From Alphaproteobacteria bacterium (lineage in GTDB: Bacteria > Pseudomonadota > Alphaproteobacteria > UBA6615): 64,000 bases of DNA. The stretch covers positions 1 through 64,000 of the forward strand of contig SHWB01000009.1 of the NCBI GenBank assembly GCA_009691025.1, in the 5' to 3' direction. Positions 50,389-56,726 of this stretch are shown here, piece after piece (position 1 is the first letter of the stretch; each line of letters opens with the position of its first letter). The notes under the pieces are model-generated. The model saw only the letters and a program-made list of their open reading frames with translations, ran no database searches and was not told the DNA's origin. The position numbers and the translations under genes are program-made.

Positions 50389-51311
50389 TCCCGGCGAGCG
50401 ACATACCGAAGGGCGGATGGATCGACCGCCGCGTGCCGGCGGCGCTGCGGCCCTGGCTGCGGCTGCTGCGCCTCGACCGGCCGATCGGCACCTGGCTGCT
50501 GCTGCTGCCGGGCTGGTGGGGCCTCGCGCTGGCCGTGCCGCTCGGCGGCGGCGATGCGGCGACAGCGGCACGCCTGATGTGGTGGGGAGCGCTATTCGGC
50601 TCCGGCGCGCTGGTGATGCGGGGGGCCGGATGCATCGTCAACGACATCGCCGACCGCCGGATCGACGCGCGGGTCGCGCGCACCGCCGACCGGCCGATCG
50701 CATCGGGCGCCATCTCCGTGCGGGCGGCGCTGAAGCTGCTGGCCGTCCTGTTGCTGATCGGTCTCGCCATCATCGCGCAGTTCGACGGCTTCGCCGTGGC
50801 GCTCGGCGCCGCCTCGCTGCTGCTGGTGTTTCCCTACCCGCTGATGAAGCGCATCACCTGGTGGCCGCAGGCCTGGCTCGGCCTCACCTTCAACTGGGGC
50901 GCGCTGCTCGGCTGGGCGGCGGCGACCGGCGATCTCGGCTGGCCCGCAATTGCGCTCTATGCCGCCGGCTTCTTCTGGACTCTCGGCTACGACACCATCT
51001 ACGCGCACCAGGACAAGGAGGACGACGCGCTGGTCGGCGTGCGTTCCTCGGCGCGCTGGCTCGGCGCGCGAACGCGACCGGCCATCGCGATCTTCTATGC
51101 CTTCGCCATGGCGCTGCTGGCGCTGGCCGGCGAGCTCGCCGGGCTCGGCTGGGGTTTCTGGCCGGGCCTCGCGCTGGCCGCTCTGCATCTGGCCGGGCAA
51201 GCGCGCCACACCGATTTCGACGACCCGAAGAGCTGCCTCGCCGCCTTTCGCGCCAACCGCTACACCGGCCTCATTGTGCTGGCGGCGATCCTCGCCGGCG
51301 GCCTGTCATGA
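50385..51311 (+). CDS. ubiA: 4-hydroxybenzoate polyprenyltransferase
   Basis: 308-residue UbiA, the integral membrane prenyltransferase that joins the polyprenyl tail to 4-hydroxybenzoate in ubiquinone synthesis. The two Asp motifs are GCIVNDIADRRIDARVARTA (about residue 82) and GYDTIYAHQDKEDDALVGVR (about 205). RLLRLDRPIGTWLLLLPGWW at the start is characteristic. Its four-base overlap with the methyltransferase gene implies translation coupling. The stop meets the dead MFS gene end to end. Confidence 0.95.
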   Translation: MIPASDIPKGGWIDRRVPAALRPWLRLLRLDRPIGTWLLLLPGWWGLALAVPLGGGDAATAARLMWWGALFGSGALVMRGAGCIVNDIADRRIDARVARTADRPIASGAISVRAALKLLAVLLLIGLAIIAQFDGFAVALGAASLLLVFPYPLMKRITWWPQAWLGLTFNWGALLGWAAATGDLGWPAIALYAAGFFWTLGYDTIYAHQDKEDDALVGVRSSARWLGARTRPAIAIFYAFAMALLALAGELAGLGWGFWPGLALAALHLAGQARHTDFDDPKSCLAAFRANRYTGLIVLAAILAGGLS

Positions 51312-52491
51312 GCGCGGGCGCCGCATCAGCGTCATGAAGGTGGCGGCGAAGGCGCCGACCGCGCAGGTGGCGATCCCCGCCACCATCGGCAGCGGCGTGC
51401 CGTCGAAGACCCTGCCGCCGATGACGATCATCAGCGCGCCGACCACCATCTGGATGGTGCCACCGAGCGCCGAGGCCATGCCGGCGATGGGCCCGTGGTC
51501 CTCCAGCGCCAGCACCATCGTCGCCGGGATGACGAGGCCGAGGCCTGCATTGGTGCAGAACAGCAGCACGATGAGCACCGCGAGGCTGTCGAACCCGCTG
51601 GCGATGGCGGCACAGAGCAGCAGCGCGAAGCCGGCATAGACGCTGACGGCGACCGACCGACGCGGGCGACGCCGAAGCGCGCGACGAGCAGGGCGGCGAA
51701 TTGCGAGGTGCCGATGAAGCCCACCGCATTGATCGAGAAGGCGAGGCTGTACTCCATCGGCGTCAGGCCGAAATGGCCGATGTAGACGAAGGAGGAACTC
51801 GCGAGGAAGACGAAGAAGCTCGATATGCCAAGCGCGCCGATGAAGGTGAGGCCGAGGAAGCGCGCATCGCCCAGCAGCCGCGCGAAACCGGCGATCAGGC
51901 TCGCCACGCCGACGGAAATGCGGGCGGCCGGCGGGCGCGTCTCGGGCAGCAGCGTGGCGACCAGGACGAAGGCCAGCGCCGACACCACCGTCACGGCGAC
52001 GAACACGGAGCGCCGGCCGAAACCCTCGGTCAGCAGGCTGCCGAACAGTGGCGCGAGGATGGGCGAGACGCTGAACACCAGCATGACCGGCGACATCAGC
52101 CGCGTCGCCTCGATGCCGGTATGCATGTCGCGGATGACGGCGCGCGGGATGACCATCGGCGCAGAGGCGGCGACGCCCTGCAGGCAGCGTCAGGCGACGA
52201 GCTGGTCGATGTCCGTCGCCGTGGCGCAACCGACCGACGCCGCCGCGAAAAGCGAAAGTCCGAAATAGAGTGGCCGCTTGCGCCCCACCGCGTCCGACAG
52301 CGGGCCGAAGACGATCTGGAAGACGCCGAAGCCGACGAAATAGGCCGTCAGCGTCATCTGCGTCGCCGCCGTGGTGGTGGCGAGATCGGCGGCGATGGTC
52401 GGCAGCTCCGGGATGTACATGTCGTGGCGAACGGCCCGACCGCGACCAGCAGGCCGAGCACTATGGCGTTGCGCGCGTAACTCGCTGTCAT
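51306..52491 (-). pseudogene. Bcr/CflA-type MFS drug exporter, multiply broken
   Basis: A 12-helix Bcr/CflA-family exporter. From ATG at 52491 it reads TASYARNAIVLGLLVAVGPF, then one base is missing (about 52426, in a position where the family reads IDMYIPELP). In the true frame MYIPELPTIAADLATTTAAT and GPLSDAVGRKRPLYFGLSLF follow, then TGA at 52192-52190 (LVA*RCLQGVAA, family Trp, so TGG-to-TGA), then an open stretch to FAALLVARFGVAR near 51670, where another shift is needed to reach VSVYAGFALLLCAAIASGFD and the last two helices. Two shifts and one stop. It overlaps the ubiA end. Confidence 0.88.
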
Positions 52492-52589
52492 GGGTCGCGT
52501 CTTTCAGGGCGGCCCGCCGGGTCGCATGGCCCGGCGCCTGGCGTCCCTCTACCCGCACCGCGGCGATGCGTCCAGCGTGGCGGTGCCGC

Positions 52590-53303
52590 TCATCCCCTAT
52601 CGCGCTCGTCGCCCGTAGGTTCGTGCACGACGATATGCGGCGGGTGCTCGGCGGCGATGGCATGGGCGGCGAGGCGGGCGATGCGGCGGGCGCGCTCGGC
52701 GGCGTCGTCGACCGTGGCGGCGACGAAGGACGCGAGGTCGCTCTCCGGCGCGATCCGCGCTCGCGCGAGGTCGAGCGCATCCCTTTGCAGCAGCGCTGTG
52801 AGGCGGCGGCCCTCGGCCGCGATGGCAGCCAGCGCGACGGCGGAGCCGTCCACGGCAAAATTCCCGCGCTTGCCGAGATAGGCATGGGCGCTGTCGAGCA
52901 CCGTGCCGTCGTCGAGCGCCAGATGCACGCCGGTGAGCGCGGCATAGACGTAATTGTGCGCCTCGCTGGCATGCATCACCACGAGCTGGTCGGCGTCGAG
53001 CCAGGTGACGGCGACGGCCACCGACGTGCCCGACGCGCGACGCAGCGCCGCCGGCAGCGCGCCGTAAACCGACAGATGCGCAGAATAGACGACGTCGTGG
53101 TCCGCCAGCCGCGCCCGCTGCACCGGTATCGGCGTGTGATCCGTGCCGTATTTCTGGCGCAGCCGATCGGGCGACTGGTTGGAGCCGTAGCCGATCACCG
53201 GCACGCGCCCGCGCCGCAATGCGGGCGCGAAGGGCGCCGCCGCGCCGCCGACGAGAGTGAAGGACGCGTCCGGGATCGCATAGGGGTAGTCGAGGGCGCG
53301 CAT
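52590..53303 (-). CDS. Hypothetical protein with a YGSN (gamma-glutamylcyclotransferase-like) motif
   Basis: 237-residue protein. Near residue 37 the segment RVPVIGYGSNQSPDRLRQKY has the Tyr-Gly-Ser-Asn substrate loop seen in gamma-glutamylcyclotransferase-like folds, and a conserved EAHNYVYAALTGVHLAL follows. The family seems common but uncharacterised in Alphaproteobacteria; the reaction is not known. ATG at 53303 is the homology-based start. The same frame stays open back to 53441, into the AT-rich island, giving about 46 more codons of no known kind. GC-rich and intact, unlike the neighbours on both sides. Confidence 0.6.
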   Translation of the reverse strand: MRALDYPYAIPDASFTLVGGAAAPFAPALRRGRVPVIGYGSNQSPDRLRQKYGTDHTPIPVQRARLADHDVVYSAHLSVYGALPAALRRASGTSVAVAVTWLDADQLVVMHASEAHNYVYAALTGVHLALDDGTVLDSAHAYLGKRGNFAVDGSAVALAAIAAEGRRLTALLQRDALDLARARIAPESDLASFVAATVDDAAERARRIARLAAHAIAAEHPPHIVVHEPTGDERDRG

Positions 53304-53309
53304 CAGCTT

Positions 53310-54318
53310 GCTAGGCTTACTGCCCAGAGCATCTGTAAGCATATATCTGTACCTGACTTGGTTCCAACGCCGCCATGACGATATGCTAGTAACTAACGTA
53401 CAAATGCGTATCTTTCCAGTGAATGGGAAAGCATATGGCAAACGTATTTATACCACAGTCACATAGCGAAAAGCTTTTGTATACAACTGTGATAATCTCA
53501 TCTAATTATGAAAATAGTCAAAGTGGAGTCGGAACCGGATCTTTGTTCAGCCGGAAATATGGGAGGGACAAAAATTTACCGCTCGTAATCACTAACAAGC
53601 ATGTGGTGAATGGTTCAGTTACGTCTGAATTTATACTGCACGTCGCGAACGGGATCGGGGCGAGTCGCGCCCCGTCTGGCAAATACGCGGCAGTAGAGAT
53701 TGGGCCCTATTCAGACTGGTTTGGTCATCCAAATGACAATATCGATTTAAGCGGTAATCCAATAAATCCAACGCTGCACCAAGCGGCCCAAAGTGGGGAT
53801 CCAATTTTCTCGACAAACATTGGCGATGATATAATTCCATTTATTGATGATATCCAAGATTTAAACGCGGTTTAATAAGTAGTAATTATTGAATATCCAA
53901 CATAATTATTGGATACCATCAACAAATATCAAATAATTATGAGAGTAATAACCAATGCATATCCTGCCATATATTTTGATGGACGACCAGAATTTGATAC
54001 TGACATGGCTTGATATACAAGTATCTCGGGTTCGCCAATTTTCTTGTAGAATTTCGTATCGTACTCAGGTAGAAACGGGAACACTGTGATGGGCTCTCTG
54101 ATTAAATTGCTTGGTGTCTTCTATGGTGGACCTGTTTACACTGCTAGCGGTGATGTCAAATTAGAACCAATTCCTACATCAAGATCGAAATCAGCAATAG
54201 ACATGATGATAAATCTCAGATATGTTATAAAATATCATGAAGTACTGACACTGAGCGATCATATCATCTCGTCTTATGATAATAATACGTTGTAAAGTGT
54301 AAGTAGTTAGGGCCTTCC
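53310..54318. other. AT-rich island
   Basis: Base composition changes sharply: from about 53320 to 54318 the DNA is mostly A/T while both flanks are about 65-70% GC. The only gene in it is the damaged trypsin-like protease. Its edges lie close to the starts of the YGSN gene and pmbA. I see no flanking repeats, integrase or tRNA, so the mechanism of entry is not visible. Confidence 0.8.
53435..54294 (+). pseudogene. Trypsin-like (S1/S1C-type) peptidase with several in-frame stops
   Basis: Read in one frame from ATG at 53435 (another at 53423), without any frameshift, this is a chymotrypsin-fold serine protease of about 285 codons. The catalytic triad can be seen: His in PLVITNKHVVNG (about residue 53), Asp probably in HPNDNIDLSGNPI (about 100), and Ser in the SISGSPIFL motif (after 54017). 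Stops interrupt at 53873-53878 (TAA TAA, before VVIIEYPT), then TAA (LLDTINKYQ follows), TGA (after FDTDMA) and TAG (before NFVSYSGRNG). The C-terminal part, KLLGVFYGGPVYTASGDVKL, remains well kept. Codon use is AT-rich and foreign to the genome. Acquired and then lost. Confidence 0.85.
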
Positions 54319-54319
54319 A

Positions 54320-55666
54320 ATGACAATCTCCAACAACGACCTCGACCTGCTCGCCGGCCTCGTCCTGAAGGCCCGCGCCGCCGGGGCCGACGCGGCCGAC
54401 GCCATTCTGGTCCGCTCCGCCGCCTCGTCCCATGCCCGGCGCCTCGGCGCGGTCGAGCATGTCGAGCGGCAGGAGAGCCGCGATCTCGGCCTGCGCGTGC
54501 TGGTCGGCAAGCAGCAGGCGGCGAATTCCTCGACCGACCTGTCGGCCGAGGCCCAGGCGGCGCTGATCGAGCGCACCGTGGCGATGGCCAGCGCGGTGCC
54601 GGCCGACCCGTGGTGCGGCCTCGCCGACCAGGCGGAGATCGCTAGGGTCTGGGGCGACCTCGACCTCGACGATCCGATCGAGCCCACGCCCGAGGCGCTG
54701 GCCGAGGCGGCCGCGATCTGCGAGGCCGCCGCGCTGGGCGTGAAGGGTGTCAGCAATTCGGAGGGCGCCGAGGCCGGCTGGGGCCGCTCGCAGATGGCCG
54801 TCGTCGCCAGCAACGGCTTCGTCGGAGCGTGGTCCCGCACCAGCCACTCGGTCAGCGTCTCGGTCATCGCCGGCGAGGGCACGGCGATGGAGCGCGACTA
54901 CGACTGGACCAGCGCCGTCCACCGCGCCGACCTCGTGGATGCCGCCACGATCGGCCGCCGCGCCGGCGAGCGCACCGTGGCGCTGCTCGGCGCCCGCCGC
55001 CTGCCGTCGAGGCAGATGCCCGTGGTGTTCGAGCCGCGCGTCGCCTCGGGCCTGCTGCGCAGCCTCGTTGGCGCCATCTCCGGCACCTCGGTGGCGCGGC
55101 GCGCTAGCTTCCTGATGGACGATCTCGGCAAGCGCCTCTTCGCCCCCGGCATCGTCGTGCGCGACGATCCGCTGCGCCGGCGCGGCGCGCGATCGCAGCC
55201 TTTCGACGGCGACGGAATCGCCGGCGCGCCGCGCAATATCGTCGAGGACGGCGTGCTGACGAGCTGGCTGCTCGACCTGCAGACGGCGCGCCATCTCGGC
55301 CTCGAGACGACCGGCCACGGCACGCACGGCACCGGCGGCTCCTCCGGCCCCTCGCCCTCCAACCTCTGGCTCGCCGCCGGCAGCGCGACGCCGGAGGAGC
55401 TGATGGCCGACATCAAGGACGGCTTCTACGTCACCTCGATGATGGGCATGGGCGTCAGCATGGTGACCGGCGACTACAGCCGCGGCGCCGGCGGCTTCCG
55501 CATCGAGAACGGCCGGCTCACCCACCCGGTGAGCGAGGTGACCGTCGCCGGCAATCTGCGCGACATGTTCGCCGCGCTGGTGCCGGCCAACGACCTGATC
55601 TTCCGCTGGGGCCTCGACACCCCCACGATCCGCATCGACGGCATGACGGTGGCCGGCGGCGGGTAG
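54320..55666 (+). CDS. pmbA: PmbA/TldE metalloprotease partner
   Basis: 448-residue PmbA (TldE), the non-catalytic partner of TldD in the heterodimeric peptidase. It has the VEHVERQESRDLGLRVLVGK block, SNGFVGAWSRTSHSVSVSVI, FEPRVASGLLRSLVGAISGT, FDGDGIAGAPRNIVEDGVL, and ITNG-type ending RMTVAGGG. It lacks the HExxxH motif, as expected for this subunit. It is 16 kb from tldD, an unlinked arrangement. ATG at 54320 follows the AT-rich island by a few bases, so its original promoter may have been displaced. Confidence 0.93.
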   Translation: MTISNNDLDLLAGLVLKARAAGADAADAILVRSAASSHARRLGAVEHVERQESRDLGLRVLVGKQQAANSSTDLSAEAQAALIERTVAMASAVPADPWCGLADQAEIARVWGDLDLDDPIEPTPEALAEAAAICEAAALGVKGVSNSEGAEAGWGRSQMAVVASNGFVGAWSRTSHSVSVSVIAGEGTAMERDYDWTSAVHRADLVDAATIGRRAGERTVALLGARRLPSRQMPVVFEPRVASGLLRSLVGAISGTSVARRASFLMDDLGKRLFAPGIVVRDDPLRRRGARSQPFDGDGIAGAPRNIVEDGVLTSWLLDLQTARHLGLETTGHGTHGTGGSSGPSPSNLWLAAGSATPEELMADIKDGFYVTSMMGMGVSMVTGDYSRGAGGFRIENGRLTHPVSEVTVAGNLRDMFAALVPANDLIFRWGLDTPTIRIDGMTVAGGG

Positions 55667-55673
55667 CGAAGAC

Positions 55674-56587
55674 CTAAGCCGGCCGCACGATCGTCAGCGC
55701 GTCGGGTGCCGCCTCGGTCGTCAGGGGCAGGGTGGCGGCGATGTCGCCGTCGAACTGCACCGCCTCGTCGGGCGCCGCTCCCGAACCAGCCATGATGCGC
55801 GCGCGCGTCACGGTGAGGACGCGAGCATCGTCATGGCGGGCGACGCGGCCGGTGGCGACGGCGAGCAGGGCGTGCTGCAGCGCAAAGATGTCGCGCTACT
55901 CGAACAGCACCAGTTGCAGCGACGGCGCCGCAAGGTCGGCCGCCGGGGCGCAGACGTAGCGGCCGGCCCAAAAGCGACCGTTGGCGACGACGATCCAGCC
56001 CGCCTAGTGACGTCCGGCGTCGCTCTCGACGGTGTAGCGGAGTGGCGGCCAGCGGGTGAACACCACGATCCCGGAAGCACGAAGGCGCCATTGCCGATGA
56101 CGCGCTTCAGACTCGGCCGCACGGCGGCGACTATCTCGGCGTCGAAGCCGATGCCGGCCATCATGGTGAACCCGCGGCCATTGGCGCGGCCGAGAGCGAT
56201 GCGCCGCGTCGTCCCCGTCGCCGGCGAGCGCGAGGCGCCATCTCGGTCGCAGGGCGCGAAGACCATCTCGGCGGCCAGCACATTGGCCGTGCCGAAAAGC
56301 AGCACGGCGACGGCCGGCGCGGCGCCCGCGCGCGACAACAATCCGTTCACGGCCTCGTTGGCCAGCACGTCACCGCCGACGACGACGATCACATCCGTGC
56401 CGGCAGGCGCCGCGGCGGCGAAATCGGTCGCGTCGCCCGGCCCGCGCGTCTCGGCCACCGTGGCGCGGGCGCCGGCGCCGTCGACGATGGCCAGCGCGCG
56501 GGCCAGCCATCGCCGCCGTCCGCGACGGCCGGCCTGGTTGAAGGCAATATGAAGACATCGTGCCGCCTGAGCGTCGTCGTATCTCAC
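55674..56587 (-). pseudogene. Diacylglycerol kinase-family lipid kinase, broken
   Basis: Remnant of a DAGK/YegS/BmrU-like kinase. From GTG at 56587 it reads ARCLHIAFNQAGRRGRRRWL; the nucleotide motif, normally GGDGT with downstream N, is VVVGGDVLANEAVNGLL, so the catalytic Gly has become Val (GGC to GTC). FGTANVLAAEM is present. A frameshift at about 56068 follows RVIGNGAFVL; in the true frame the text goes IVVFTRWPPLRYTVESDAGR, TAG after H, AGWIVVANGRFWAGRYVC, then a second TAG after LVLFE, and RDIFALQHALLAVATGR to the end at 55674. One shift, two stops, plus the altered motif. Confidence 0.82.
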
Positions 56588-56726
56588 AATTCACTGTGTT
56601 TGTCTTGAGTATTATTACAATTTCGTGACACACCGTCAGAGGTGTAGCATTAACTTCATTAGGTAACGTCCCGCAAATCATATATCTGGCGAAAACGACC
56701 CGAAGCCAGGACGCGCACGGGACGCC

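Follow-up and report, generated by a model that had tools for sequence, protein, structure and literature searches.

The island and its neighbours

Between the divergent genes YGSN (minus strand) and pmbA (plus strand), the window (the whole stretch of DNA analysed, 64,000 nt) contains a short AT-rich island with a broken protease gene. At 53304-54319 the GC content is 0.40, versus 0.696 for the whole window, and 1-kb windows below 55% GC occur in the island only. The read-through frame of the gene has a GC3 of 0.37, versus 0.80-0.95 in host ORFs. The sharp compositional break, the position of the gene between YGSN and pmbA, and the lack of a partner gene (the neighbours are YGSN and pmbA themselves) all agree with the original prediction. 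The following features can be distinguished:

52580..53342, minus strand: YGSN-motif gene, left neighbour; probable start at 53342
53304..54319, no strand: AT-rich stretch, GC 40%; inserted portion about 53343-54319
53435..54295, plus strand: serine protease pseudogene (S1/chymotrypsin fold, stand-alone) from the PDC-S45 / phrog_7688 family; 286 codons when read through
53435..53875, plus strand: sole stretch still open when read from the likely start codon; 146 codons, with His56 and Asp104, without Ser198
53600..53602, plus strand: catalytic His56 codon (motif TNKHVV)
53744..53746, plus strand: catalytic Asp104 codon (motif NIDLSG)
53873..54052, plus strand: damaged segment, codons 147-206; all five stops; 15/27 conserved positions changed
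54026..54028, plus strand: catalytic Ser198 codon, kept (motif SISGSP)
54320..55666, plus strand: pmbA (TldE-like), right neighbour; starts 24 bases past the last stop of the pseudogene

The left edge of the island had been placed at 53310, a position that falls within the YGSN gene. The YGSN N-terminus in the window, MLTDALGSKPSKLMRALDYPYAI (start at 53342), matches MAENPFETDPVLQRAAGYPYDI, the start of a relative's YGSN protein; in consequence, the gene probably starts at 53342 rather than at 53303, and the left edge is corrected to about 53343, which gives the insert an estimated extent of about 53343-54319.

Two host genes nearby are also broken: (i) a Bcr/CflA-like MFS transporter gene at 51300-52500 (minus strand), by an in-frame TGA and a frameshift (about 51.4-52.5 kb); and (ii) a diacylglycerol-kinase-like gene at 55690-56590 (minus strand), just past pmbA, by a TAG and frameshifts (about 55.7-56.6 kb). 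General decay would account for their state, and so would uneven assembly quality. Rfam matches scoring 0.36-0.44 were set aside as chance.

Reading frame, stops and catalytic triad

A single forward frame (from 53303) can be read over the full length of the island. The likely start is the ATG at 53435, with GGGAAAG upstream of it, and the terminal TAA lies at 54293. Between them there are five in-frame stops: TAA at 53873, 53876 and 53903, TGA at 54011 and TAG at 54047 (codons 147, 148, 157, 193 and 205 of 286). About four stop sites had been predicted, and the five stops do stand at four places when the neighbouring TAA TAA are taken as a single site. Comparison with family relatives found no frameshift in the pseudogene and so confirmed the claim of stops within one clean frame.

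The triad can still be read, as had been claimed, with His56, Asp104 and Ser198 intact in alignment columns that are invariant over 21 sequences; the two residues preceding Ser198 are SI in the window copy, while GS is conserved in the family. Since the remaining open frame has at most 146 residues and lacks the catalytic serine, the window copy is predicted to be without protease function, its largest product being a 146-residue fragment.

Family assignment and fold

The read-through protein matches PDC-S45 (PADLOC PDLC05022, a single-gene phage-defence candidate) with E=4e-66 over residues 8-281, i.e., profile positions 14-287 of 293, and phrog_7688, a group of phage proteins of unknown function, with 2e-42 over residues 10-270; these two values exclude chance resemblance. 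Intact relatives score 1e-88 to 1e-122 in the PDC-S45 model. With PDC-S45 the window gene shares the near full-length profile match, the Ser-His-Asp triad in the motifs TNKHVV, DL and SGSP, and the character of a stand-alone gene in a scattered and mobile family; it differs in being broken and in having 26-36% identity to any intact member found. With five in-frame stops the coding sequence is not intact, and the gene is therefore classed as a pseudogene derived from PDC-S45 and not as a working member. Its membership of the PDC-S45 / phrog_7688 family, as a broken copy, is established at the level of sequence.

An NCBIfam profile search and a PDB sequence search of the protein returned nothing, and a phage-record search by protein and by DNA gave no match. 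The AlphaFold model, built from the read-through sequence (stops read as Gln) with a 16-sequence alignment, has a pTM of 0.79 and a confidence dip at about residues 141-170. The predicted structure has the double beta-barrel of the chymotrypsin-fold (S1) serine proteases, in agreement with the fold originally proposed, and the top folds in a Foldseek comparison with the PDB were DegQ, DegP and DegS (E about 1e-7, TM about 0.5). Unlike the HtrA/DegP/DegS (S1C) proteases, to which it has about 15% identity, the window protein has no PDZ domain and scores 19.2 bits with Pfam Trypsin_2 (PF13365), below the curated cut-off of 27.6.

Distribution of intact relatives

The search for the phyla that carry the closest intact relatives, suggested with the original prediction, found them scattered over several: Alphaproteobacteria, Bacteroidota, Bacillota, Patescibacteria and one Nanoarchaeota bin. 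They reside on prophage or viral contigs, plasmids and scattered chromosomes, mostly as single genes. Plasmid copies occur in Moraxella, Acinetobacter, Exiguobacterium and Nitrobacter, among others, and several adjoin recombinases. A scan of viral contigs found none when queried with the broken window protein and 64 relatives when queried with the alignment; all 54 viral copies examined are intact across the matched stretch. Viral copies adjoin integrase, tail, baseplate, portal and terminase genes, and lone cargo genes usually sit beside such phage genes. The prophage copies of phrog_7688 are lone cargo beside structural genes, whereas no phage genes adjoin the window copy. PDC-S45 has also been reported in Sinorhizobium prophages (PMC12429752).

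No close donor was found among these relatives (best identity, 36%). In the tree the window copy stands on a long branch near a Moraxella/Acinetobacter/Rhodobacterales group, with weak support (0.60).

Some relatives have peculiarities of their own. A frameshift splits both the Legionella longbeachae pLLO copy (L048:5995-6815) and a Cytobacillus plasmid copy (L053:5992-6827), whose annotation lists short hypothetical proteins; loss of the family gene is, in consequence, recurrent. Exiguobacterium plasmid p4 carries a tandem pair of PDC-S45 genes (L049:5119-6822). In an Absconditabacterales relative (L029:6999-7787) TGA is read through at conserved glycines, consistent with TGA = Gly there. Another relative (L047) has a hydrophobic N-terminal extension which, judged from its sequence, is signal-peptide-like; hence, not all family members need be cytoplasmic defence proteins. 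A PDC-S45 match flagged as containing two TAA (G662) is actually intact, the stops preceding its start.

Acquisition by the host lineage

In three genomes of the same bacterial family (G006, G008 and G013) YGSN and pmbA are directly adjacent, with a gap of 200-310 bp and no protease, and no true PDC-S45 member was found in the 23 other genomes of that family that were sampled. Because of this absence and of the undisturbed YGSN-pmbA neighbourhood in three relatives, the gene is considered to have been acquired. Across the class, 2 of 385 genomes match the protein, the source genome being one of them, and in three g4 genomes (L004, L005 and L007) a different gene lies next to YGSN. The claim of a foreign AT-rich gene is thus upheld by composition and by absence from sampled relatives, and the proposed comparison with sister genomes did not find the island in all close relatives.

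In relatives (L006, L008 and L009) the YGSN-pmbA gap, a divergent promoter region, contains a conserved element, CTATCGAAAAAGTTCCTTCGATATG...TCAGGC(C/T)(C/T)TACATA, that includes the inverted repeat TATCGAA/TTCGATA. Neither the element nor the palindrome was found in the YGSN-pmbA gap of the window; a palindrome candidate with 2 mismatches falls at 53894, within the damaged gene, and does not clearly exceed chance.

Clustered damage

All five stops fall within 59 of the 286 codons (random-placement P of about 0.007). Conserved positions are changed in 15 of 27 cases inside codons 147-206, in 5 of 22 before and in 4 of 14 after; broken positions inside (15/27) versus outside (9/36) give a Fisher P of 0.019. 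As the damaged segment was picked after the stops had been seen, both P values err somewhat on the optimistic side. It is the best-conserved segment when intact relatives are compared with one another (53-70%), but the window copy reaches only 30-43% there; before and after it, the window copy diverges as intact members do from one another. Among 20 inferred single changes, 9 are G to T on the coding strand and 3 are G to A.

A long-drifting dead gene would decay throughout. The clustered damage may represent either a recent local burst of mutation or a faulty stretch of assembly. From the claim that the gene died recently and by substitution only, the stops without a frameshift stand; even decay is not supported, the damage lying within about 180 bases and being, maybe, partly assembly error.

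Origin of the broken gene

The best explanation, with a probability of about 0.7, is that the locus holds the relic of a horizontally acquired stand-alone PDC-S45 serine protease gene which was inactivated here. The foreign composition, the absence from sampled relatives, the in-frame stops and the intact triad codons are all observed. PDC-S45 genes travel singly, as accessory cargo of prophages, plasmids and other mobile DNA; this one would have entered a GC-rich lineage, in the narrow space that separates its divergent YGSN and pmbA genes, and would then have been inactivated. A mobile element was presumably the delivery vehicle, the intact relatives may be proteases that detect phage infection or act on it, and the stops are taken to be real and not an assembly fault. 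Three observations speak against a transfer relic: (i) searches of the island edges found no mobile-element remnant, no terminal repeat, no direct or inverted repeat bracketing the insert and no target-site duplication, for which a check had been proposed; (ii) no close donor was found, the best identity being 36%; and (iii) the clustered damage is not predicted by uniform decay. This clustering is the exception in an otherwise ordinary relic.

The clustering of stops and of broken conserved positions would also arise if the living organism had an intact gene and the 180 damaged bases were an error of sequencing or assembly confined to this part of a metagenome-assembled genome that is itself incomplete (61% complete, 27 contigs). 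The normal identity to relatives outside the segment points the same way, as does the one-strand excess of G to T, which is known to occur with oxidised DNA or reads of poor quality. Nevertheless, about 20 errors in one stretch rarely survive assembly unless coverage is very low, the segment contains no indel, and the other broken genes nearby make real decay plausible here; we regard such an error as unlikely, though deserving of serious attention. Another reading makes the protease gene a long-standing resident of the lineage whose AT-richness has other causes. It could draw on the trypsin-like gene that G008 has at the opposite flank of YGSN, but that gene belongs to another family (PDC-S45 E of only 1e-10), none of the 23 other genomes has a PDC-S45 member, and the codon usage of the window gene is unlike that of the host, all of which makes a resident gene very improbable. 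Recoded stops in a gene that is read through and functional would suit the preserved frame and the intact triad, and the Absconditabacterales relative does read through TGA. However, TAA, TAG and TGA are all present, where the family has Glu, Gly, Cys and Tyr-like residues, so that no single code fits; host ORFs end normally on all three stops, and conserved Gly/Pro/Arg residues around the stops are lost too. Recoding was rejected as contradicted by these mixed replacements, and we give it hardly any credence.

The horizontally acquired relic is real but ordinary, a pseudogene from a mobile protease family that is already known, and alone it matters little, recording one gene transfer and one loss. 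It does show, in a clear-cut case, a candidate phage-defence protease lying outside a mobile element, and the survey made around it depicts PDC-S45 as a widely shared family of prophage and plasmid cargo.

Links to defence and restriction-modification

The original suggestion that stand-alone proteases of this kind often belong to small defence or stress modules holds insofar as PDC-S45 is a listed phage-defence candidate, but that label denotes a candidate only and not a tested function; no experimental report on its anti-phage function was found in the literature. The lack of a partner gene is normal for the family. In Hachiman, AVAST, Lamassu and DRT, trypsin-like proteases are described that pair with gated MBL-fold nucleases (PMC12799240), and they share with the window gene a trypsin-like fold tied to antiviral loci. 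While such proteases form fusions with defence enzymes and have an upstream nuclease, the window gene, a 286-codon stand-alone gene, has neither and does not belong to such nuclease-protease pairs.

In some loci the protease accompanies type II restriction-modification (R-M) genes: (i) flanked by a BsaWI-type endonuclease on one side and a methylase on the other, the reading frames touching (L012:331-3794); (ii) next to an MvaI/BcnI system (L013:4772-7446); and (iii) next to a TdeIII system (L016:8384-11601). As these three proteases are 68-82% identical to one another, one subclade accompanies three different R-M types. R-M genes lie near the protease in 3 of 22 loci and in none of a control set of genes from the same loci at least 5.5 kb away, numbers too small for significance. 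The window gene falls outside this subclade. Tentatively, and at rather low odds, PDC-S45 proteases could be working accessories of type II R-M systems in that subclade, and the window gene would then be a more distant member, now broken, of a family that takes part in restriction control or abortive defence. The tie of one subclade to R-M operons offers a testable lead on an uncharacterised family. Among other loci, MvaI/BcnI and a very short patch repair endonuclease are likewise found on the Acinetobacter plasmid with a family copy, and the L019 locus has an AbiJ-domain gene.
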